From contig NC_089444.1 in NCBI RefSeq assembly GCF_026210795.1, positions 2,656,501-2,720,500 of the forward strand: DNA of 64,000 bases, written 5' to 3'. A program made the position numbers and the translations under genes. The stretch's first letter is position 1, and each line of letters begins with the position of its first letter. The stretch comes from Rhizophagus irregularis. Its lineage: Eukaryota; Glomeromycota; Glomeromycetes; Glomerales; Glomeraceae. The notes under the pieces are model-generated. The model made no database searches. It was not told the origin of the DNA and saw nothing but the letters and a program-made list of their open reading frames with translations. Positions 21,210 to 33,268 of this stretch are shown in pieces.

Positions 21210-21306
21210 ATATTCATTATTATCTTTGGCAGAATTACATTCTATCACCCTATTAGCTCCCCTGTACATACTTTCCCTATCTTTAAAATATACGTATGCA
21301 TATAAC

Positions 21307-21744
21307 AGTAGTATGAAAACCCCAATTCTGACTCACCCCCACCATATAATCTAAAATACTACCACTTTATATAATCTAATTACCACCATCATATAACTTA
21401 ATTACCATCATATAATCCACCTACCACTTTTACTATAATTTAACTACCACTTTATATAATCTAGTTACCACCATCATATAATTTTAATTACCACCATATA
21501 ATCCACCTACCACTTTTCATATAATCTAGTTACCATCATATAGTTTTATTACCACCATACAATTCTATTACCACCACACAATCTGAAAAAATTAACCGAA
21601 CAAGAAATAGGATTTCAAAGCCAACGGAGCCAAAAAAGGTAAGGAATATTAACCCATCCAGGAAACCAGCCATGGAGTCAATAGAGCGGAATAGCAAGGC
21701 AAGCAATTACCCTTATACCGAGAAAAAATGTAATTGAATAAAAG
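21307..21744. repeat. Left terminal inverted repeat of the Polinton-like element
   Basis: 438 bp, the same length as the right copy; all stretches compared match. It contains two copies of a repeat of about 86 bp built from ATATAATC and TACCACC words, then a unique part, and ends with the motif AATGTAATTGAATAAAAG just before the first gene. Confidence 0.92.
21722..21744 (+). promoter_or_regulatory. Putative element promoter motif, copy 1
   Basis: AATGTAATTGAATAAAAG preceded by GAAAA, 40 bp before the ATG at 21784. The same word precedes the polymerase gene and, on the minus strand, the acidic protein gene. Promoter function is inferred from recurrence and position only. Confidence 0.45.
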
Positions 21745-21783
21745 GTAGGTACCAAGTTACTATACAGATAAATAGTACATAAC

Positions 21784-22140
21784 ATGGTATATACTGCAGT
21801 ATCAGCAATTCCTGAACTTGTAGGCCATATCCTGGAATACATTCCAAATAGAAATTTTGGGACACATCTTCTAGAAGTCAGCCCAATCTGGAGAGTTGAA
21901 GCTGAACGAGTACTCTGGAAGCGGCATAAAGAAGCCGAGGAGGCATACGACAGGGCAGTAGAAAAGAAGGAAAAAGCAAATGATGCTCTTGGTCGATCAG
22001 AGGAGGAGGGTAATAGAAATCGTGACCTCCGTGAACTTGAATGGGAGGCATATCAAAAGGCTTGTAAAGAGAGAACAAATGCCGCAGTAGAGCATATTAT
22101 AGTAAAAGAAGCTATTCGCCGTTGTAACTTACAACTATAA
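21784..22140 (+). CDS. Small F-box-like protein with coiled coil
   Basis: 118 codons, TAA stop. The N-terminal 40 residues (IPELVGHILEYIPNRNF... LLEVSPIWRVEAERVLW) match an F-box-like helix set, including the V-S-x-x-W-R-x-E-A-E-R-V-L-W pattern common in Glomeromycotan F-box proteins. Residues 45-115 are highly charged and probably a coiled coil (EEAYDRAVEKKEKANDAL). It is the first gene inside the left TIR of the Polinton-like element. It may recruit the host SCF ligase, perhaps to remove a host factor or control the element's own proteins; that role is inference. Confidence 0.65.
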   Translation: MVYTAVSAIPELVGHILEYIPNRNFGTHLLEVSPIWRVEAERVLWKRHKEAEEAYDRAVEKKEKANDALGRSEEEGNRNRDLRELEWEAYQKACKERTNAAVEHIIVKEAIRRCNLQL

Positions 22141-22297
22141 GTTACTTAAGGATAGAGAATACATCGGGACGAGGATGTGTTCGGTGACTCGGATGATGAT
22201 GACTCAGATGGTGAGGAATAGTTTAGGAAGACAGTACTAATCTGTCTCCCTCTTTTTTTACCCTCATAGGGTAGGCGAACAATTAATTTTATTTTCA

Positions 22298-22333
22298 GAA
22301 AAAATGTAATTGAATAAAAGAGGAGTATAAAAA
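22298..22333 (+). promoter_or_regulatory. Putative promoter of the DNA polymerase gene
   Basis: AATGTAATTGAATAAAAG ends at 22320, followed by the TATA-like TATAAAAAG, and then the ATG at 22343. This is the second copy of the word found at the inner edge of both TIRs. Confidence 0.45.
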
Positions 22334-22342
22334 GTTTACAAG

Positions 22343-25300
22343 ATGTCAACACATCAAGCAAGAAGTGCCCAACACAGACAAGTCACCCGATCAGTTCTAG
22401 CTGAACTCAAGCAGGTACCTGTCAAGTCCATCCCATATCCCCGCTCAAATGCAAAATTGCAGGAATATGAGGATGAGATCTGCCAAATCCGTGAAGCACA
22501 AGCGGCGGTAACCAATGAAGAGATAACCCGCATGATGCAAATTGACCCAGACCCACATTATGAGGTAGTCTTTGAACGTCGTGATCAGGTACGTATAGGA
22601 AAGGAGTTAACAGACTCAAACTTTACGGCTGATATTGCTATAGGAACACCTGGAGAGCATGACTATGCTTCATTTCTTACAGCACACAGTCAAACAATCC
22701 AGAATATTCTTCGGGATGAAAGAAATCGATTGGGATCAATAAAAGTAAGAATTGGAATATTTGCCACAATAAGACGTTTAGATTCTTACCTTGAGGGATT
22801 ATTCGGAGATGGTAACTTTAGTGAAGATGATGGAGTAGAGTATATCTACAGATACAACATACCATTTAAAACTCGCAATATGCCAATCCTACCATCAACA
22901 GATATTAATGGTACATTTAACTTTGCATTAGCAAGAATCATGCAGAAAGTAGAAGACTATGTAAATTACGGATCAGGTTGGGAATTCTATCGTGTAGAAA
23001 AAATATTTATAGAAATCTCGCAATTCCAACCACCCACAGGAGCAGGACATATACCACTCCCAAAAGATCTTGCTACGAAAAAGGGAGTAGTAAATCCAGC
23101 TAATGATGATGACAAATGCTTCCAGTGGGCAATCCTAGCAGCATTACATCCAGTAGAAAAGAATGCAGAAAGAATTTCCAAGTATAAGGAGTATGTAAAT
23201 GAGTTAAACTTTGAAGGTATCGAATTTCCAGTACAAGCTGATGAGGTAATTCTAAGAAGATTTGAGCGACAGAACCCAACTATTGCCCACTGCATCTGTG
23301 AATGGCGTGACCACCGCCTATGTCCAATATATGTTACCGATAGGGATGATGCAGAGGGCCGTAAAATAATAGATTTAGTACTTATCAGTAACGGGGAAAA
23401 GCAGCACTATTGCTGGATTAAGAATATGAGCCGTTTAGTAAATAAACGTACAAAAGATGGACATGCAACATTTGTCTGCCGATGGTGTATCTCCCACTTC
23501 ACACATCAACAAGAAATCCATGACAAACATGTAGCAATATGTCGAGGATTAAAGAAAACCCCACAAGCAGACCGAATGCCATCAGTAAAGAAAGGAAATG
23601 ATATATATGAATTCAAAAACTGGAAACGCCGCATGCAAGTCCCATATTACTTTGTTGCAGACTTTGAAGCCCTAGTAATGGACATACCACCCACAGATGA
23701 AGACAAAGATAAGAAAACCAAGAAAGTACAAGAGCAAATCCCCTGCTCATACTCGTATATTAAGGTAAGATATGATGGTGTAAGTGAATCACAGAAGATA
23801 TTTACAGGAGAAAATGCAGCACAAAAATTTGTAATCGAAATGCTAAATGAGGCTGAAGCAATCCGTAATGAATTCAGAAACCCAATGGAAATGATGCCGT
23901 TAACAACCCAAGAGCAAGCAAGTTATGATAATGCAATAAACTGCTGGATATGTCGTAACCCCTTAGATGGAAATAAAGTAAGAGACCACTGCCATATTAC
24001 AGGAAGGTATCGAGATGCAGCACATAGAGGATGTAATCTTGACTTATCCATAAAACCTCGTGAAATGCATATCCCAGTAATCTTTCACAATTTATCAGGA
24101 TATGATGGACATATAATTATGCAAGGAATTGGTGCAATGGAATGTGAGGATGATATTGATCCTATCCCTTATAACATGGAAAAGTATATGGCATTCAAGT
24201 TAGGTTCCCTCCGATTTATAGACAGCTTACAATTCATGAAATCAAGTCTCGACAAATTAGCATCCAACCTAAGCGCAGAAAAATGTAAAGCACAAGAATG
24301 TAGTAATCCACAACACTTATGGCGAATTGATGCAGGTAGATGCTTTGCACATCCCGAAAACTTTAAGATAACACGAAGTCAAATACCACCTGAATTACTC
24401 GAGATTTATCTTAAGAAAGGTGTCTACCCGTATGAATATATGGATGACTGGAAAAAGTTCGAGAAAACTAGTTTACCACCTAAAGGAGCATTCTATAGCA
24501 AACTTAATGAAACCCACATTAGTGATAAAGAATACGAATATGCACAGTATGTATGGGAAAAAGCAGGATGTAAAACAATGCAAAATTATCATGACATTTA
24601 TCTCAAAACTGACGTCCTCCTACTAGCCGATATATTTCAGAATTTCCGAGAAATGGCCTTGAAAAAATATGGGTTAGATCCTCTCTGGTACTATTCAACA
24701 CCAGGCTTCGCATGGGATGCACTATTCTTAATGACAGGGCAAAGATTGGATCTTATAACTGACCAGGACATGTACATGATGGTAGAACAAGGATTACGTG
24801 GTGGAATCTCTATGGTAAGTAAACGATATGCTCGTGCAAATAATCCAGGTATGGGAGAAGGTAAATGGACCACAGATAAGCCCAAGTCATCTATTCTATA
24901 CTTAGACGCAAATAACCTATATGGATGGGCCATGTTGCAATACTTACCTACAGGTAACTTCCACTGGATAAAGGAGGAAAACGAGTTATCTAACATTCAA
25001 AGGCAAATAGAAAGTAATGAAATACCAGATGATTCTTCTGAGGGATATATCCTTAAAGTCAAACTGGAGTACCCTCAAGCCTTCCATTCACAACACACAG
25101 ATTACCCCCTTGCACCAGAACGAATGAAGGTTAAGAAGGAATGGCTTAGTAAAAAGCAGCAGGAAATAATAGCACGTTCAGGACAACGATATACACCCAC
25201 GGATAAACTCATCCCTAACTTATTTGATAAGGATGAATATGTAGTTCATTATAGAAATCTCCAGTATTATGTTAGCCAGGGCTTAGTAATCAAGAAGGTT

Positions 25301-26239
25301 TATGAAGCTATAAAATTCGAGCAGGCTCCATGGATGAAACCATACATAGAATTTAACACCGCCGAACGTGCTAAGGCTAAGAATGATTTTGAGAAGGACT
25401 TCTATAAACTCATGAATAATAGTGTATTTGGTAAAACTATGGAAAATCTCAGGAAACGTGTACGTGTCTCAGTAGTACAACCCCAAACCCATCCCAAGAA
25501 ATATAAAAAGCTTACCTCAGATCCTGCATTCAAGGGTCGTAAAATATTCTCAGAAAATCTTGTTGCAATCCACTGACGAAAAGTGGAGGTAATGCTTAAC
25601 CGTCCAACATATGTGGGTATGAGTGTGCTTGACCTCTCGAAGCTCTGTATGTATCAATTCTACTATGATACTCTTAAAGTACGATATGGTGAAAAAATCC
25701 AGTTATGTTATACAGACACAGACTCACTTCTTGTACAAATCCAAACTGAGAATATCAATGCAGACCTCATAGATATGGCAGACCAATTTGACTTCAGTGA
25801 TTATCCTAAAGATCATCCTGTACGAAAAGCATTAGGTGATAAGACTGATATAAATATGAAAATCCCAGGGAAATTTAAGGATGAATGTAATGGAGCAGTT
25901 ATAGCAGAATTTATTGGCCTCCGTCCCAAAATGTACTCCATTCTCAAGGTAGGGGATGAGACCACCAATCCAAAACATGGTATCCGTAAAGCTAAAGGTG
26001 TCCCCTCAAAGGTAGTTAAAAAAGAGTTCCACCATGAGCGGTATAATAAGGCACTCTTTGATCCTAAACATAATGATACAGTCACCTTTAGAGCAATCCG
26101 ATCTGATAGACATGCCATAAATGTTATAGAAATGTCGAAGGTGGGGTTATCCCCTATGGATGATAAAAAATGGATTGCACAAGATAATATCACAATGTAT
26201 GCACATGGAGATTATAGGATACCACAACTTGAAAATTAA
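22343..26239 (+). CDS. DNA polymerase B (protein-primed type), interrupted by one in-frame TGA
   Basis: 1,299 codons with a TGA at 25574-25576 and TAA at the end; both parts are in the same frame. Residues about 250-270 carry NPANDDDKCFQWAILAALHP, a Cys-containing domain often found in large polymerases of this kind. Exonuclease motif I is YFVADFEALVMD (about 438). A zinc/HNH-like insert CWICRNPLDGNKVRDHCHITG (about 534-565) precedes the Exo II motif NLSGYDGH (about 580). Polymerase motif A is LYLDANNLYGWAM (about 855), motif B KLMNNSVFGKTMENL (about 1028). Motif C YTDTDSLLV (about 1123) and the KFKDE...LRPKMYS segment lie after the TGA, so the upstream part alone lacks a catalytic aspartate pair. 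It would replicate the element by protein priming. Context is CAC TGA CGA. Confidence 0.92.
25574..25576 (+). other. In-frame TGA inside the DNA polymerase gene
   Basis: The reading frame is open for 1,077 codons before and 221 after; conserved polymerase motif C follows. The next base is C and the context is TGACGA, a weak-termination context in many eukaryotes, and also what a C-to-T change in CGA would give. Confidence 0.9.
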
Positions 26240-27294
26240 TATAATATATGAGTAGGAGGCAGCATAGTATCAGATGGCACAACTAATAATTCTTCTCGAG
26301 TAAATATTTTTTTAGGTCCATCAGATAACCTATATATAACCGGCTGCCCATTAACAACTGTGGAAGATTCAATTGTATAAACTTTAGTAGACCATATTGG
26401 ATCAGTTGCACGTCTCCTACCTTGGTAATCTGAGTTATCAAGTAAGTATCTCACAAGAGAACCAGCTGGTAAACGTATTTCTTCTGCACCTACAGGTCTA
26501 TCCTTCCGAATTTTTGAAGGTAGTGCATACACTTGATCTTTCTGGATTGCCTCAACTGGAGACATACCTAGCAGACGAGTATTAGAATTATTTAGCTCAT
26601 TCACAATATCAGAAAGGTTCTTAACCCAGGCAGTATTCACATCTTCTGTAAGGAGTTCCTTTGCATCCTGTATTTTGAAAAGTCTCTTTGCTAAAGTTCG
26701 ATTATACCGTTCAACAATAGCCTGACTCTTATGAGTAGTACCCACCCGAATACGCACACCTTTTTCATCCATTAATCGGATAACTTCATCCTTAAATTCT
26801 GATCCCCCATCTACTTGTAAAACTCTTGGCCAAATAAGCGGGCAGTCTGCTTTACCATAGATCTTTTTAAATGCCTTAGCAACACGTGCAGAGCTGCGAT
26901 CTTCTAAAGGTACTGAAGCTTTATATCGGCTAGCAACATCTACAATATTCAGACAGTATTTATACAGCTTTCTATCTACAGTATCATAGGGCATATATAA
27001 GATATCTGCTTGATGATACATATTTGGTCGAGTAATCTTATTAAAAGAAACCTGTGGAACATACTTGGGTATAGGTGAGTGTATTTGCCATATAGCCTGT
27101 TTATGCAACCACTCTGTAATATCAGATATGTTAAAATCATGGCCTTCAGCTTGCACTTTAGCCCAAAGTTTTTCAGGAGTACGATAATATTCACATGGAT
27201 GGTAATAGATTTGTTGAAGGATATAATTTTGTTCGATTTGTTTATTAAATGTAGGGTCTATAAAAATCTGTGGAACTGGCAATGGAAGATACAT
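26236..27294 (-). CDS. Retroviral-type (rve) integrase of the Polinton-like element
   Basis: 352 residues from the ATG at 27294 to TAA, converging on the polymerase gene, whose end it overlaps by about 4 bp. The catalytic triad is visible: Asp about 97 in HQADILYMP, Asp about 162 in LQVDGGSEFKDEV, and Glu about 195 in AIVERYNRTL. An N-terminal region with HPCEYYRTPEKLW lacks a clear HHCC finger. The C-terminal part (YTIESSTVVNGQPVIYRLSD to REELLVVP) looks like the SH3/chromodomain-like tail of Gypsy and Polinton integrases. It would cut and join the TIR ends and produce the observed 6-bp duplication. The start overlaps the start of the Gag gene head to head. Confidence 0.92.
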   Translation of the reverse strand: MYLPLPVPQIFIDPTFNKQIEQNYILQQIYYHPCEYYRTPEKLWAKVQAEGHDFNISDITEWLHKQAIWQIHSPIPKYVPQVSFNKITRPNMYHQADILYMPYDTVDRKLYKYCLNIVDVASRYKASVPLEDRSSARVAKAFKKIYGKADCPLIWPRVLQVDGGSEFKDEVIRLMDEKGVRIRVGTTHKSQAIVERYNRTLAKRLFKIQDAKELLTEDVNTAWVKNLSDIVNELNNSNTRLLGMSPVEAIQKDQVYALPSKIRKDRPVGAEEIRLPAGSLVRYLLDNSDYQGRRRATDPIWSTKVYTIESSTVVNGQPVIYRLSDGPKKIFTREELLVVPSDTMLPPTHILY

Positions 27295-30200
27295 CGTTAA
27301 AGACACAGATTACAAAGCTTGCACATACATTGCAATCACAAGAGCAATATATAAAATACCTGTATGGTGTAATCGAGGGTCATGAATCTGAGATAGAAGA
27401 ACTTAGGCAAAAAAATGCTGAGTTGCGTGCAAAGCTTAAGAAAGCATTAGAAACGGCATCACTAAAGGAGGAAGGGCTTCAAGCATTAGAACGTCAGCTG
27501 ATTGAAGTTGATACTCTAAATATTCAACTCAAAGATCGAATAAAAGAACTTGCTAATAGACAACGGAAAAACATGGCAGCAATTCCTCCTGACCCTATTA
27601 CAGAAATCTTAAATAATCGGACAACTATAGCAAATAGTGTAGCTGGTATTCGTATTCACCTTGATCGTACAACTATAGCAGCACACCCTCATATAAATCA
27701 TTTATTTAACACTGCAAATGATAGTCTTGATGCCATTATCCGATATGCTAATGAGTTGCGAAATATTATAGAAGATCAAGATAATATGGAGGATAGACTT
27801 GAAGGTTTGTTAGATGATGCACATAACCGTGAAGAATATCTTAGACAAGAACTTAATAATACACGTGCTACTATACTGAGAACAAGACGTACTTATGAGG
27901 ATGCATATGCAAATGAAGTGCGTCATCGCCAACATTGGGAAGCCCTTACACAAAATACTCAGATCCAATTGGCTAACATCCAGGCTCAATTTGCTAACAG
28001 TCAAATCCAACTAGCTAATGTCCAGAGAGAACGTGATGAGAGTAGAAGAAATGCTCATAGATTATTACAGCGCTATAATACTGAAACAGAGCGAAGTAGA
28101 AGGCGGGCTAATGGTATCATTCAGCAAGCTCGAGCATGGAGAGGGCAATTTTTAAACTGTCGCAATCATGGCCAAAATTTGCAAAATCAGGTCAATAATT
28201 TGAATCAACAGATTCTAGCATTACAAAATAACCCTCCGGTAATACAACAACCTATAATGGCAGGATATGCACCTAAAAAATTTAGAGGAGCATCTGGTGA
28301 AGATCCAGAACTTTGGCTTCAAGAATTCAGGCAATGGTGTGAGTCTGCTGGACTTGATCCTGCTGCTAATGCTAGGACTCGTGTTAGGATTCATGGGATC
28401 TTTGAAACTTTATTTGAAGATGATGCTAGAGATTGGTATGAAACACATATCAAAGGAAAAAATTGGGAATGTGTAAATCTTCTGGATAATACTGGTGTGG
28501 CCAATCTTGCTGCTTTTAATGCTTTGAATAATGGCGCTATACAGGCTGTAGCGGCAAATCAATTTCGTGGAGGGGCTAATGTATTACATGGACAAGCAGC
28601 TGCAGTTAATACTATTACTGGTGCTAATTTTATACCTGATCATACTGTATGGGATGAAGATTGGTCAATAGTCGAGGGTCGTCCTACTGATATAGCTGTT
28701 AATAATCCTAATGCTAATAATGGAGGTACAATTGTGGCTCCTGGAATACGTATTGGACAATTAATATATCGTTTTAAGCATTACTTCCCTACTATAACAT
28801 CTGAAAAGTCTAAGCTTGCATTTAATGCTATTGTTCAGGGTAGTGATACTGTAAGCCGATTCTATTCTAAATTACGAAGAATGGTTAGACTTGCATATCC
28901 AACTCTTCCAGAGGTAAATCAGAATGAATTAGTACGGCAACAGTTCTTAAATGGTCTTTCCAGTGAAAATAAGTTGGATGCGTGACGTATTGGTTTAGAA
29001 AATTCAGTTGCATCTATTCTGAATAAATTGGAAGAAGTTGAGAAATACAGGACAGATATGCCACCTACTCCTATAGTTACATATCAGGGTCCAACTTTAG
29101 CAGATATTGAGAATCTTATAAATTCTAAAATTCCTATGACTACGGCTAGATCATCTGCAGTACCAGTACCATCTTCTAGTCCATTTTCAAGTCCTCAAAA
29201 TGATACATCATTTCAGAGATTACTTGCTTTAGCATATAAATTAGGTCTTCCAAGAGATATCGATATAAGTAAAGTAACCCTTAGTGATCTTGAAATATTT
29301 ATTGATACAGAACTTAATAAAAATTTACCATCTGACCATATTTACCGTGGTAATCAGGTATTTGGTATAAGTTCAGGTACACGCAAACCAAAGAAATCAA
29401 AGAAATGCTCAAGTTGTGGAAAATCTGGTCATACTAAGAGTTCCTGTCCAAAATCTAAGAAGGGAAAGAGGAAAACAAATTATGCACATGACTCCTCTGA
29501 TTCCTCTAACTCTTCTGACGCCTCTGACTCCTCTGACTCCTCTGATAGTGATTCAGACTCTGGACATGCCTGCTATGGATTAAAAAAAAAAGCCTACAGA
29601 AAGGAAACGTGTAGATAAAAAGCCTACTGATAAGAAAAAATCACAACTTGAAAGGCAGCGTATTATCTTTGAGGTTTTTATACAACTCTTAAAGCTTCTG
29701 GTTCAATCCTTCGTTAATGCTGTACCAAAAGAGACTGTTATATCTGCTTACAATGCTCTGAATGCTGAATTCATTAATTATAAAGAACCAGTACTCAGTC
29801 AGCTTAAAGGAGAACCCTCAATAAAAACACGTGAAAAAGTTTGGGATAATGTTAAGGACCTTTTCACATCTATCCTTCATCCTATGATTTCAGTTGTAAC
29901 TAATAGTATGGCTGCAAATTTAATCCGTAAAAATGATGATGTTATATGTAATAATGACTTATGGTCTTCTATAGCAGGTATTGGAATTGTTAACCGCAAG
30001 TCTGCTAGTGATGTAGTCACTATTAAGACCAAAGTAGTCGCACCTGAGAGTGAAAAATCTTTAGTTATTTCTACGACAATTTTCGATACTGGTTCTGATA
30101 GTTCTCTGATATCTAACAATATTGTAAAGCGCCTAAATCTTGACGTTAATAGAAGTAATGCTCCTGACCTTAGTGGTGTTGCGACAAAATCTGATACTAT

Positions 30201-30492
30201 TGGGACAGTATATGGTCTTGGTATTCTTGTGTATGATGGGGAGAACTCTAAAAAAATCGAAGATGACTTCATGGTTGTTAAGAGTGATAAGGACTTTTTA
30301 TTACTGGGTGTACCTTGGATTGATCGTGCTAATGTCATTCTAGATTTCCAAAATCGGCAACTGACCATCCCTCTATCATCACGTAAAAAAATTACCATTC
30401 CAATTTTTCTACATAAACGGAAAACTAACGTGACTTCCTTGCAGATGGATACTATCGACTTAAAAAAAATTCACACTCTCGAGGAAGATTAA
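27282..30492 (+). CDS. Gag-CCHC-aspartic protease polyprotein (broken by TGA and a one-base slip)
   Basis: From the ATG at 27282 a long frame runs to TGA at 28983-28985, continues in the same frame, then changes frame at a run of ten A (29582-29591) and ends with TAA at 30492. Residues about 5-330 form long heptad-rich coiled coils. About 330-570 look like a retrotransposon Gag region (YAPKKFRGASGEDPELWLQE, then KLAFNAIVQGSDTVSRFYSK). Then come a CCHC knuckle (CSSCGKSGHTKSSC, 29406-29447), an Asp/Ser-rich linker, and after the A-run a retropepsin-like domain with IFDTGSDSSLIS at about 30082 and LLLGVPWIDRANVILDF. No reverse transcriptase or RNase H is present. A capsid-like role is inferred. 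With nine A instead of ten the frames would be continuous. Confidence 0.82.
28983..28985 (+). other. In-frame TGA inside the Gag-protease gene
   Basis: Context GCG TGA CGT; the frame stays open for about 210 codons after it and carries the CCHC knuckle. It shares the TGACG context with the TGA in the polymerase gene. Confidence 0.85.
29582..29591 (+). other. A10 run where the Gag-protease reading frame changes
   Basis: The upstream frame ends within about nine codons of the run, while the +1 frame is open from the run through the protease to 30492 (first residues KKPTERKRVDKKPTDKKK). Either a one-base insertion, a homopolymer sequencing error, or a programmed slip. Confidence 0.8.
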
Positions 30493-30600
30493 CCTGTCAT
30501 CTATGTGGAGCAAGTTTTGACTTTCCCTCTAAGTTAAAGCGTCATCTTGCTAGGAAAAATCCATGTGTTTCCCAAACTTCTGCGGCAATGATGGGTAGTG
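30484..30600 (+). pseudogene. Orphan C2HC zinc-finger coding fragment
   Basis: In the frame offset from the protease, the stretch reads RLTCHLCGASFDFPSKLKRH then LARKNPC, a C-x2-C-x12-H-x6-C finger. The frame is open a few dozen codons upstream and a TTGCAG acceptor lies near 30440, so it could be a small exon or the frame-shifted tail of the polyprotein. No start codon is assigned. Confidence 0.4.
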
Positions 30601-30687
30601 GCGGGCAGTGCCCAAATTTTTTCGGCAGTGACGGGCAGTAACAGGGCAGTGCCCAAATGTTTTGGCAGTGATTAGCCTTTACAAATA

Positions 30688-31200
30688 TTACATTTGCCAT
30701 GTTACTCTGATTTCTAGGTCTTTACAGGTTTCTATGAGTTTTTCAATGGCATTTCTATTTTTAAAATATCGACTATATCTGATATCTAGCTTTTGAAGGT
30801 TTGGTAATATATGCAGGATTTCACTTAGCAAATCTCTAACGTCACCTTTTCCACCATAGTATTGATAATCTATTATGCTAAGTTCCTGGATATTGGGGCA
30901 AGCTTGTAGCATTTTTACAATACAGATAGGCCATAATAATACTCCATCCATATTAAGCTTTCTGATATATTTTCCACATACTGTCCCTGGTTTTGTGAGA
31001 TGTTTGTACATTTGGAACTCCTTAATATTATAGAGGTTATAAAGGTCTGTTTCACCCCATAGGAGAGAGTTTGCTACTACAGCCCATTTTTGACACACTA
31101 ATGCATAATTGCAAAGATAATGCCAACGGGAGTAAGTACCTTCATATGAAGTTTTGAATATCTTTTCTAAAAGTTCGAAAGGTAAGCTATTGTTTGTCAT
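30688..31200 (-). CDS. F-box protein carried by the Polinton-like element
   Basis: 170 codons, single exon, ATG at 31200. The N-terminus SLPFELLEKIFKTS... LCNYALVCQKWAVVANSLLW is a clear F-box, with the Leu-Pro start and the VCQKW helix. The rest has leucine-rich repeat-like pieces (CPNIQELSIIDYQYYG and LPNLQKLDIRYSRYF). It is short for a host F-box/LRR protein (commonly 450-550 residues), so it may be a captured and trimmed host gene. An AT-rich promoter-like word and a perfect 16-bp palindrome lie directly upstream. Likely role: bridging a target to Skp1/SCF. Confidence 0.8.
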   Translation of the reverse strand: MTNNSLPFELLEKIFKTSYEGTYSRWHYLCNYALVCQKWAVVANSLLWGETDLYNLYNIKEFQMYKHLTKPGTVCGKYIRKLNMDGVLLWPICIVKMLQACPNIQELSIIDYQYYGGKGDVRDLLSEILHILPNLQKLDIRYSRYFKNRNAIEKLIETCKDLEIRVTWQM

Positions 31201-31202
31201 GG

Positions 31203-31218
31203 TATCTCATATGAGATA
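31203..31218. promoter_or_regulatory. 16-bp perfect palindrome before the F-box start
   Basis: TATCTCATATGAGATA, two bases upstream of the minus-strand ATG, between two divergent genes. It could be a binding site for a dimeric factor; this is inferred from symmetry only. Confidence 0.35.
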
Positions 31219-31229
31219 TTGATGAAGAA

Positions 31230-31252
31230 GTTTTATTTAATTAGATTTTTTC
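31230..31252 (-). promoter_or_regulatory. Putative element promoter motif, variant
   Basis: On the minus strand AAATCTAATTAAATAAAAC, a two-to-three-base variant of AATGTAATTGAATAAAAG, 30 bp upstream of the F-box start at 31200. Confidence 0.35.
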
Positions 31253-31304
31253 TTAGGATAAAATAATTTGAACATTTCTTTTCTATCAATAGAAAAAACC
31301 AGAC

Positions 31305-32096
31305 ATGCTTACTTTTAGTGAACTTACTCCATCTCTTACTGTTACTGAATTTAAGATCAATGTTGAAGGGCTTGATTACACCGTGCTTGGTCATAAGCTT
31401 GAACCTACTAAGGATGTTATTGCCATTAATAGCAACTTTATTCATAAAGCTTTTGAGGGTTATGAACAGTACTTGTCTAAACCAAAAGGTGAGAGGCGAT
31501 GCAGACGAAGTACACCTGACAATCCATTAAATAGACGGCGACGTACAGGGGATGGTAGCACTTTTAATGCATGCATTGAGTTTGTTATCATCTTAGCTGA
31601 TACTGTACATACTATTCATTATTTTCCTAAATCTGGTAGTATACAAGTTTTCGGGTCTTTTGATCCTGTTACTATCTTCTTACGTTACCTTTCTGAATGT
31701 TCCCTACCTGAATTTTCTTCTGTAGAACTTGTGGGTGAAAATAAGGCTCTCCTGCGCAATTATAAATTTGTGATTAATATTGGGGGTGATAAGTTTATTA
31801 ATCTTTCTACCTTAGCATATGCTTTAGAATCTATAGATGGTATTCGTGAGATTCTTCCCTTTCCGATAAAGTATATTAAGAATGATGCAGGTGATATTCA
31901 TTCTAAAATTGCTATAATCTTTACTTCAAAGATTCGGGTACATATCTGGCTTAAATCTGGTAAGGTTAATATATTTGGCACTAAGACTGAATTGGATGCT
32001 GATATGGTTTATAAGTTCTTACAGAAGTTGTTTTCTAATCCATATGATTTTGGAGATTTTATTTGTGATGCACCTATTCCAGATTGCGAGAGGTAA
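31305..32096 (+). CDS. Duplicated-fold protein resembling viral TBP-like factors
   Basis: 263 codons, ATG at 31305, TAA stop. Two halves share one pattern. Residues 84-133 read STFNACIEFVIILADTVHTI then HYFPKSGSIQVFGSFDPVTI; residues 196-243 read GDIHSKIAIIFTSKIRVHIW then LKSGKVNIFGTKTELDADMV. Each is strand-strand-(K)SG(S/K)(I/V)xxFG followed by a helix, as in the saddle repeats of TATA-binding protein. The SG-x-I-x-x-x-G turn is the form familiar from TBP-like proteins of nucleocytoplasmic large DNA viruses. A basic stretch RRCRRSTPDNPLNRRRR lies before the first half. If right, it may recognise the element's own AT-rich promoters. No search was run, so this is pattern-based inference. Confidence 0.5.
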   Translation: MLTFSELTPSLTVTEFKINVEGLDYTVLGHKLEPTKDVIAINSNFIHKAFEGYEQYLSKPKGERRCRRSTPDNPLNRRRRTGDGSTFNACIEFVIILADTVHTIHYFPKSGSIQVFGSFDPVTIFLRYLSECSLPEFSSVELVGENKALLRNYKFVINIGGDKFINLSTLAYALESIDGIREILPFPIKYIKNDAGDIHSKIAIIFTSKIRVHIWLKSGKVNIFGTKTELDADMVYKFLQKLFSNPYDFGDFICDAPIPDCER

Positions 32097-32116
32097 AAAA
32101 ATGGTTTCACTGAAAA

Positions 32117-32800
32117 CTAGAAATCCTCTATTTGTAAAATCCAGCAATCGCATTCATGACTTCTTGTTGGCATAAGACATTCGTCACATAGAGTTATAGC
32201 CAACTCATTTTTTAGCCTATCCAGCTGACTCTCGGTGGTTGGTGCAAGATTTTGGTAGTATTCATTGAATTCATTCTGCTCTTCTTCATTTATGTCTTCA
32301 TCTATATCTTCATCTGTGTCTTCATCCATATCTTCATCTCCTTTTATATGATAGATGCTGAATTCATTTCTATATTCATCATTAGGATTTGTGAATATTC
32401 TTTGTATATTGTAATCTATAATGTTGAATGTTGTAGGTTTCTTTTTTGATAATATTTCTACTAAGTCTAATAATGCATATGCTAATTCTTTATCCTCTGA
32501 GAAGTTCTTAATGATATCTGAAAATCTTTCATATATTGCCATCTCATCTGGTAAAATAGAATATCTTATTCGTGATAAAAGTGATGGATGTATCCATATA
32601 TCATCACCTTCTAACATCTCATCAAATATTTCTACTAGCTCTTCTAATCCAGATACTAACATACTTTCTTTGCTAAATTCGGAATCTAAAGCTTTTAAAT
32701 ATGCTATATCTAAATACCACATTATTTCCTTTACCCATTCTTCTATGTTGAGTTCAAACTGGCCTAGTATACGTCTTAGTAATGGTCTGTATTGTGACAT
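32117..32800 (-). CDS. Acidic protein of unknown function carried by the element
   Basis: 227 codons, ATG at 32800, last gene before the right TIR. The first 140 residues look helical (ELVEIFDEMLEGDDIWIHPS; YALLDLVEILSKKKPTTFNI). Then comes a run of Asp/Glu (about 155-175, GDEDMDEDTDEDIDEDINEE), and the end has a cysteine cluster CDECLMPTRSHECDCW that could bind zinc. I do not recognise the family. A copy of the element's promoter-like motif lies 25 bp upstream, inside the TIR edge. Confidence 0.7.
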   Translation of the reverse strand: MSQYRPLLRRILGQFELNIEEWVKEIMWYLDIAYLKALDSEFSKESMLVSGLEELVEIFDEMLEGDDIWIHPSLLSRIRYSILPDEMAIYERFSDIIKNFSEDKELAYALLDLVEILSKKKPTTFNIIDYNIQRIFTNPNDEYRNEFSIYHIKGDEDMDEDTDEDIDEDINEEEQNEFNEYYQNLAPTTESQLDRLKNELAITLCDECLMPTRSHECDCWILQIEDF

Positions 32801-32824
32801 CTTGTAAGTCTTTTATATGTGAAT

Positions 32825-32847
32825 CTTTTATTCAATTACATTTTTTC
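32825..32847 (-). promoter_or_regulatory. Putative element promoter motif, copy in the right TIR
   Basis: On the minus strand AATGTAATTGAATAAAAG at the inner TIR edge, 25 bp upstream of the ATG at 32800, mirroring 21722-21744. Confidence 0.45.
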
Positions 32848-33262
32848 TCGGTATAAGGGTAATTGCTTGCCTTGCTATTCCGCTCTATTGACTCCATGGC
32901 TGGTTTCCTGGATGGGTTAATATTCCTTACCTTTTTTGGCTCCGTTGGCTTTGAAATCCTATTTCTTGTTCGGTTAATTTTTTCAGATTGTGTGGTGGTA
33001 ATAGAATTGTATGGTGGTAATAAAACTATATGATGGTAACTAGATTATATGAAAAGTGGTAGGTGGATTATATGGTGGTAATTAAAATTATATGATGGTG
33101 GTAACTAGATTATATAAAGTGGTAGTTAAATTATAGTAAAAGTGGTAGGTGGATTATATGATGGTAATTAAGTTATATGATGGTGGTAATTAGATTATAT
33201 AAAGTGGTAGTATTTTAGATTATATGGTGGGGGTGAGTCAGAATTGGGGTTTTCATACTACT
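32825..33262. repeat. Right terminal inverted repeat of the Polinton-like element
   Basis: Reverse complement of 21307-21744, 438 bp. It ends CATACTACT, followed by TATAAC at 33263-33268. Confidence 0.92.
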
Positions 33263-33268
33263 TATAAC

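Follow-up and report, generated by a model that had tools for sequence, protein, structure and literature searches.

Polintons, or Mavericks, are bounded by long terminal inverted repeats and a 6-bp target duplication. In the accessible parts of the works cited here, the group is defined by a family B DNA polymerase (PolB) together with an rve integrase (PMC7805220), Gypsy and Polinton integrases are described as related (PMC2836005), and the fungus Rhizophagus irregularis is credited with Polintons without a detectable capsid gene (under the name Glomus intraradices; PMC7805220), with a PolB placed in a tree of protein-primed polymerases (PMC4409740), and with Maverick elements named in two transposon surveys (PMC8647823, PMC11075540). 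Here we analyse an element carried by a 64,000-nucleotide stretch of R. irregularis DNA (assembly GCF_026210795.1, contig NC_089444.1, positions 2,656,501 to 2,720,500 of the forward strand; hereafter the window). It spans positions 21307-33262 of the window (11,956 bp), or 21301-33268 with both TATAAC duplications (Table 1). In our view it is probably a self-synthesizing DNA transposon of the Polinton class, with a retrotransposon-type gag-protease occupying the position of the double-jelly-roll capsid set.

Other described systems share parts with this element. It has in common with Ty3/Gypsy elements, as their layout is generally understood, a Gag with a capsid (CA)-like core, a CCHC knuckle, a DTG retropepsin and an rve integrase. 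Unlike them, it is without long terminal repeats (LTRs), no reverse transcriptase was found in it, its Gag and integrase lie on opposite strands, its ends are inverted repeats, and it encodes a DNA polymerase. Arc is a domesticated Gag protein, and PEG10 likewise is a case of a Gag capsid domain used outside a retroelement; domesticated Gags are single host genes, whereas here the gag-protease sits in a mobile DNA element with a polymerase and an integrase. Ginger transposons have, to our knowledge, no PolB. They resemble the element in having a Gypsy-like integrase inside an inverted-repeat DNA transposon, and in the accessible text of the study describing them 'gag' occurs once, in a reference's title (PMC2836005). 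Among the listed titles, abstract openings and text passages of the open-licence literature, which include a title on virophages and retrotransposons in a flagellate (PMC8547959), we found no report of a Gag in a Polinton; Kapitonov and Jurka (2006) and subscription papers lie outside that scope, and an earlier notice is possible.

The element proposed in an initial annotation of the window was confirmed, and both the 438-bp inverted repeats and the perfect TATAAC duplication were found where that annotation had placed them. The repeats are 99% identical across 452-nt arms in which the duplication is counted, and a repeat comparison of the window gave no long direct repeats at the element ends. 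The left 1 kb has 70 DNA matches across the genome, and the element is therefore more than a chance arrangement. In some copies, similarity to the left end of the window copy is confined to the outermost 50 bp and to the sequence from query base 294 onward, so that subfamilies of left ends exist; a stretch of about 86 bp present in many other copies is missing from the window copy near its left end (about 21796-21799).

The two genes on which the Polinton affinity depends had been annotated as a PolB with protein-primed-type motifs and a DDE integrase, and both assignments held. Its homology to PF03175-type PolBs is long, and by this measure the PolB is clearly a Polinton-type enzyme of the protein-primed family. 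Of 8,000 candidates scored against it, 6,453 reached E ≤ 0.001; in the list of 120 matches, those that are named and lie outside Rhizophagus are animal proteins, from Elysia, Ahaetulla and Dendronephthya (40-44% identity over 85-98% of the length). The only PHROGs match at E ≤ 0.001 was endonuclease VII, for PolB. The rve domain of the integrase exceeds the Pfam cut-off (PF00665, E 8e-9, 36.1 bits against 32.6). An IMG/VR scan with PolB retrieved two Polinton-like contigs, whereas scans with Gag and with the TATA-binding protein (TBP)-fold protein of the element gave no matches. On one of these contigs, L029, the PolB is 39% identical to that of the window and the integrase (20% identical, E 6e-13) lies tail to tail with it, as in the window; its open reading frames (ORFs) include, by eye, a major capsid (477 aa), a penton (280 aa) and an ATPase (265 aa). 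The element thus shares with Polintons/Mavericks the PolB, the rve integrase, the long inverted repeats, the duplication of about 6 bp and, with L029, the tail-to-tail order. Its PolB and integrase mark it as a Polinton, whereas its capsid does not.

In contrast to Polintons/Mavericks, the family of this element yielded neither a double-jelly-roll capsid nor an ATPase of A32/FtsK type nor an adenovirus-type protease; it has a Gag-CCHC-protease instead, together with TBP-fold and F-box proteins. The initial annotation had described both sides of this pattern correctly, including the combination of a Gag-like region, a CCHC knuckle and a DTG protease without reverse transcriptase. Ten window ORFs were scanned against Pfam (five further listed ORFs are antisense to these), and none matched a packaging ATPase family or an adenovirus-type cysteine protease; no reverse transcriptase family appeared in these ten or in the longer copies P0001 and P0002. 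Besides PolB, integrase and Gag-Pro, the longest ORF of the element has 263 aa, which leaves no room for a double-jelly-roll capsid gene inside it, a capsid supplied in trans being possible. A jelly roll hidden in this 263-aa ORF was ruled out, since its product has the TBP fold.

The assignment of the Gag draws on both sequence profiles and predicted structure. Retrotrans_gag of Pfam scored below its cut-off of 24.1 in the window ORF (13.9 bits) and in P0001 (20.2 bits) and reached E ≤ 0.01 in 10 of 25 homologues; the CCHC knuckle matched zf-CCHC at E 0.0043, with 17.5 bits against a cut-off of 20.8. Against the sequences of solved structures P0001 and P0002 gave no useful match, and profile A4 retrieved Ddi1 at E 0.02. 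The AlphaFold model of a close homologue, P0006, resembles retroviral capsids at moderate confidence (mean predicted local distance difference test score 66), with root-mean-square deviations of 6.9-10.8 Å over both domains and 2.0 Å over the C-terminal domain, and at this moderate confidence it has the two-domain CA fold. The C-terminal CA domain of PEG10 was among its Foldseek matches. The protease region of P0006 strongly resembles a Ddi1-type retropepsin, and the DTG domain is an aspartic protease domain of retroviral type. The structure search of the Gag region that the initial annotation had suggested thus matched retroviral capsids, with no jelly roll among the rows listed (PDB, BFVD).

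Homologues of Gag-Pro comprised 37 proteins, the named ones from Rhizophagus, Entrophospora sp. SA101 and Cetraspora pellucida and the others environmental. Two environmental proteins, the Gag P0025 and the TBP-fold P0176, are encoded on contigs of equal length (7,818 bp), presumably one and the same contig. The best database matches of the window Gag-Pro and PolB were entries of R. irregularis DAOM 197198 (97%). In the window copy the protease lies in another frame than Gag and CCHC, and PolB is broken by its in-frame TGA. Stop-free PolB, integrase and Gag-Pro frames are present elsewhere in the genome, and in two other copies Gag-CCHC-protease forms a single stop-free frame of 1,075 codons. 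A further R. irregularis Gag, P0020, has by eye a clearly different capsid core from P0001 and a nearly identical CCHC-protease part, which suggests recombination at the core.

Comparison of copies indicates that the gag-protease belongs to the element. Twenty genome stretches with element copies were examined, among which ten copies besides that of the window have two ends. Seven of these ten are collinear with the whole element, Gag included, apart from local gaps, and three (L019, L024, L025) have internal deletions. Related inverted repeats occur at both ends of all 11 two-ended copies, the left one being shortened in L022, and their target duplications, read by eye, are of 6 bp in five, 5 bp in four and 7 bp in one, with none clear in the last. 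Across the 146.7 Mb genome (32 contigs), 43 integrase matches at ≥92% identity, or fragments beside such matches, merged into 36 loci of the window element's family (the first family). Gag lies within 2.5 kb on the divergent side at at least 35 of these and PolB is additionally matched at at least 27, the counts being lower bounds because the searches with integrase, Gag and PolB scored only the best candidates; 2 of 37 Gag loci had no adjoining integrase. Collinear copies and the Gag beside 35 of 36 integrase loci argue against a nested insertion, the alternative for which the initial annotation had proposed a search of genome copies. One predicted R. irregularis protein, P0084 (1,486 aa), joins this family's PolB to reverse transcriptase and endonuclease domains and is probably a long interspersed nuclear element inserted in an element copy.

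Selection on the genes was assessed from single-base differences among copies, scored against the majority codon. Over the initial 960 codons of Gag-Pro, 12 copies showed 84 missense, 64 synonymous and 2 nonsense differences, which gives a ratio of nonsynonymous to synonymous polymorphism (pN/pS) of 0.37. The ratio was 0.22 for PolB (13 copies), 0.25 for the integrase (12), 0.25 for the TBP-fold protein (11), 0.38 for the F-box protein (11) and 0.13 for the 227-aa ORF (11). By this simple method, in which related copies are pooled, all six genes are well below 1, and the differences among copies show Gag-Pro to be under purifying selection.

The same genome harbours more distant relatives, with integrase matches reaching down to 36% identity to that of the window; five divergent loci were read. 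Outside the first family, at least 47 of 72 integrase matches are accompanied on their divergent side by a Gag no more than 3 kb away (30 of type B, 17 of type A), a further 13 have one within 12 kb, always upstream on the same strand and not divergently adjacent, and at 12 no Gag was found within 12 kb. An ATPase like poxvirus A32 lies within 3 kb of at least 29 of the 72. These neighbour counts, made from 39 of 69 and 56 of 95 Gag matches and 35 ATPase rows chosen by eye near integrases, are lower bounds, first-family loci and some fragments having been left out of the Gag inputs. No Gag was found at two loci (three integrase matches at 78-82%) grouped with other families.

A second complete element (L031 with L038 and L039) has 912-bp inverted repeats (99.8% identical) with termini AGTAG, a 5-bp duplication TCAGC, an integrase and a PolB 47% and 34% identical to those of the first family, and a Gag-CCHC-protease; no ATPase was seen in it. 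Its Gag matches that of the window in the N-terminal part (34%, E 3e-43), reaching about 30 residues into the core, and in the CCHC part (29%, E 3e-12). Compared alone, capsid cores of types A and B gave no BLASTP match and an hhalign value of 0.2% from thin profiles; core-only comparisons thus do not support their homology, and either an exchange of cores or a divergence too deep to detect may explain the difference. A third kind of element, read at two loci (L043:1-9651 on G000 C10; L044/L045 on G000 C2), combines a PolB of protein-primed type (PF03175, E 7.8e-7), a Pox_A32 ATPase (E 2.3e-9), a Gag 31% identical to the window core (E 6e-28), an aspartic protease (E 1.9e-7), an integrase with a chromodomain (E 2.5e-16) and an F-box-like ORF below the cut-off. 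About 40 listed ATPase matches, counted by eye, fall in 411-codon frames like that of the third kind. The idea that Gag had simply taken over the slot of the ATPase, suggested by L033 and L034, was dropped, as further DNA has both together. A seven-row integrase tree, labelled before Gag was found near L033, needed at least two changes, against a single origin of Gag-bearing integrases; it is too small to build on.

At another locus (L040, L032, L036; G000 C1:3051800-3069900), a broken DNA polymerase of giant-virus type (DNA_pol_B, 72 bits) has a Gag, an integrase and an A32-like ATPase in its neighbourhood, all at distances of up to about 10 kb. The integrase there is fused, by eye, to an endonuclease-like C-terminal part, and at L032:3018-4658, L035:3082-4758 and L034:4081-4653 integrases are fused to, or lie beside, a zinc ribbon and an endonuclease-like domain (also by eye). 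The accessible text of PMC5294986 and PMC12455990 shows that Asfarvirus-like sequences had been described in R. irregularis before.

The retrotransposon type of the Gag and DTG protease could reflect a passenger, left when a retrotransposon inserted into one ancestral copy. This is extremely improbable and already largely refuted: no LTR, reverse transcriptase or separate gag-pro boundary was found in the element copies, the divergent Gag/integrase layout recurs beside integrases only 34-52% identical, and Gag-Pro is under purifying selection. We also think it improbable that the element began with its gag-pro/integrase block, when a Ty3-like element lost its reverse transcriptase and joined a Polinton PolB, which would make the whole a retrotransposon derivative and not a Polinton. 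The kinship of Polinton and Gypsy integrases (in the accessible text of PMC2836005), the chromodomain integrase of the third kind of element, and the greater frequency of Gag than of PolB beside the integrase (35 against 27 of 36, the latter a lower bound) speak for such an origin; against it stand the tail-to-tail order of PolB and integrase, shared with L029, a contig with capsid-type genes by eye, the long inverted repeats in place of LTRs, and the opposite strands of Gag and integrase, which differ from the LTR layout as generally understood. The initial annotation had left open an independent lineage joining PolB, integrase and Gag-Pro. This fits less well, and sequence comparison supports a Polinton that took a Gag module, because the PolB is clearly Polinton-type.

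Less improbable, though still rather unlikely, is a capsid-less Polinton that lives as a transposon only. Its Gag-like protein would bind nucleic acid and act as a scaffold in replication or nuclear import, without ever assembling into closed particles. A coiled coil and a zinc knuckle would suit a scaffold, DNA-virus-type capsid and ATPase were not found in the first family, the DTG motif is lost in some related Gag genes, and accessible parts of PMC7805220 take the view that some Polintons of this fungus lost their capsid gene. However, the first family keeps the CA-like two-domain order and also the protease, which counts against a scaffold, since that needs no maturation protease, and related families retain a packaging-type ATPase beside Gag. 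These relatives also qualify the earlier suggestion that the virion module was swapped for Gag: a one-for-one swap is too narrow, as a Gag and an A32-like ATPase occur together in related elements of this genome.

For the Polinton with a Gag module, we infer that Gag forms particles and packages element DNA. PolB would replicate the element in linear form, starting at ends primed by protein. Gag would build a shell inside the cell from its long coiled coil and its capsid core, while its CCHC knuckle would bind nucleic acid, and the DTG protease would mature the shell. In the first family, DNA would be enclosed by co-assembly with Gag, since no packaging ATPase is encoded. The integrase would join the inverted-repeat ends to new sites with a 5-6 bp duplication. 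The TBP-fold protein probably drives transcription of the element itself, and the F-box protein probably has a host factor as its target.

Table 1. Features of the element and their positions in the window.
Feature	Position	Strand	Basis
Target-site duplication TATAAC, left	21301..21306	.	sequence
Left terminal inverted repeat, 438 bp, starting AGTAGTATG, with internal short direct repeats	21307..21744	+	
118-aa ORF (about 150 codons in several other copies)	21784..22140	+	ORF list; Pfam scan
Polinton-type family B DNA polymerase, internal endonuclease-VII-like motif, one in-frame TGA	22343..26239	+	
rve (DDE) integrase, 356 aa, open frame, tail to tail with PolB	26236..27306	-	
Gag: N-terminal long coiled coil (by eye), capsid core, CCHC knuckle; one in-frame TGA	27282..29618	+	
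Capsid core, retroviral CA-like two-domain fold in the model of a close homologue; end approximate	28257..29052	+	
CCHC zinc knuckle	29400..29453	+	zf-CCHC match, residues 125-142 of the ORF at 29028
Retropepsin-like DTG aspartic protease domain	29884..30492	+	domain scan; fold from homologue P0006
F-box-like protein, 170 aa	30688..31200	-	PF12937, 25.2 bits (cut-off 24.3)
TBP-fold protein, 263 aa	31305..32096	+	
227-aa protein, no assigned function	32117..32800	-	ORF list; pN/pS
Right terminal inverted repeat, 438 bp	32825..33262	-	
Target-site duplication TATAAC, right	33263..33268	.	sequence

The F-box-like, TBP-fold and 227-aa ORFs go beyond the initial annotation, and the Gag-CCHC-protease reads divergently from the integrase. 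The product of 31305-32096 is a transposon-borne TATA-binding-type protein with the two-repeat TBP saddle fold; it has 60 homologues, the named ones all from Rhizophagus. The 118-aa ORF matched no Pfam family, the longer copy of about 150 codons included.

More broadly, it is possible, if somewhat doubtful, that the Glomeromycota host a radiation of DNA elements in retroviral-type Gag shells, some filled by an A32-type packaging motor; the capsid cores may have been exchanged while the coiled-coil and CCHC parts on either side were conserved. Such differing cores within conserved flanks would offer a natural series for the study of capsid change, and elements that pair Gag with a packaging-type ATPase would make the motor loading of DNA into a CA shell testable. 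A Gag capsid would also account for the earlier failure to detect a capsid gene in the Polintons of this fungus. Capsid type underlies deep virus classification, with Polintons and their kin tied to the jelly roll and retroelements to Gag, and Polinton replication genes with a Gag capsid in one mobile DNA element join lines that are normally separate. If the proposed reading is true, these elements would amount to DNA viruses, or to transposons resembling viruses, whose capsid is of the HIV type.

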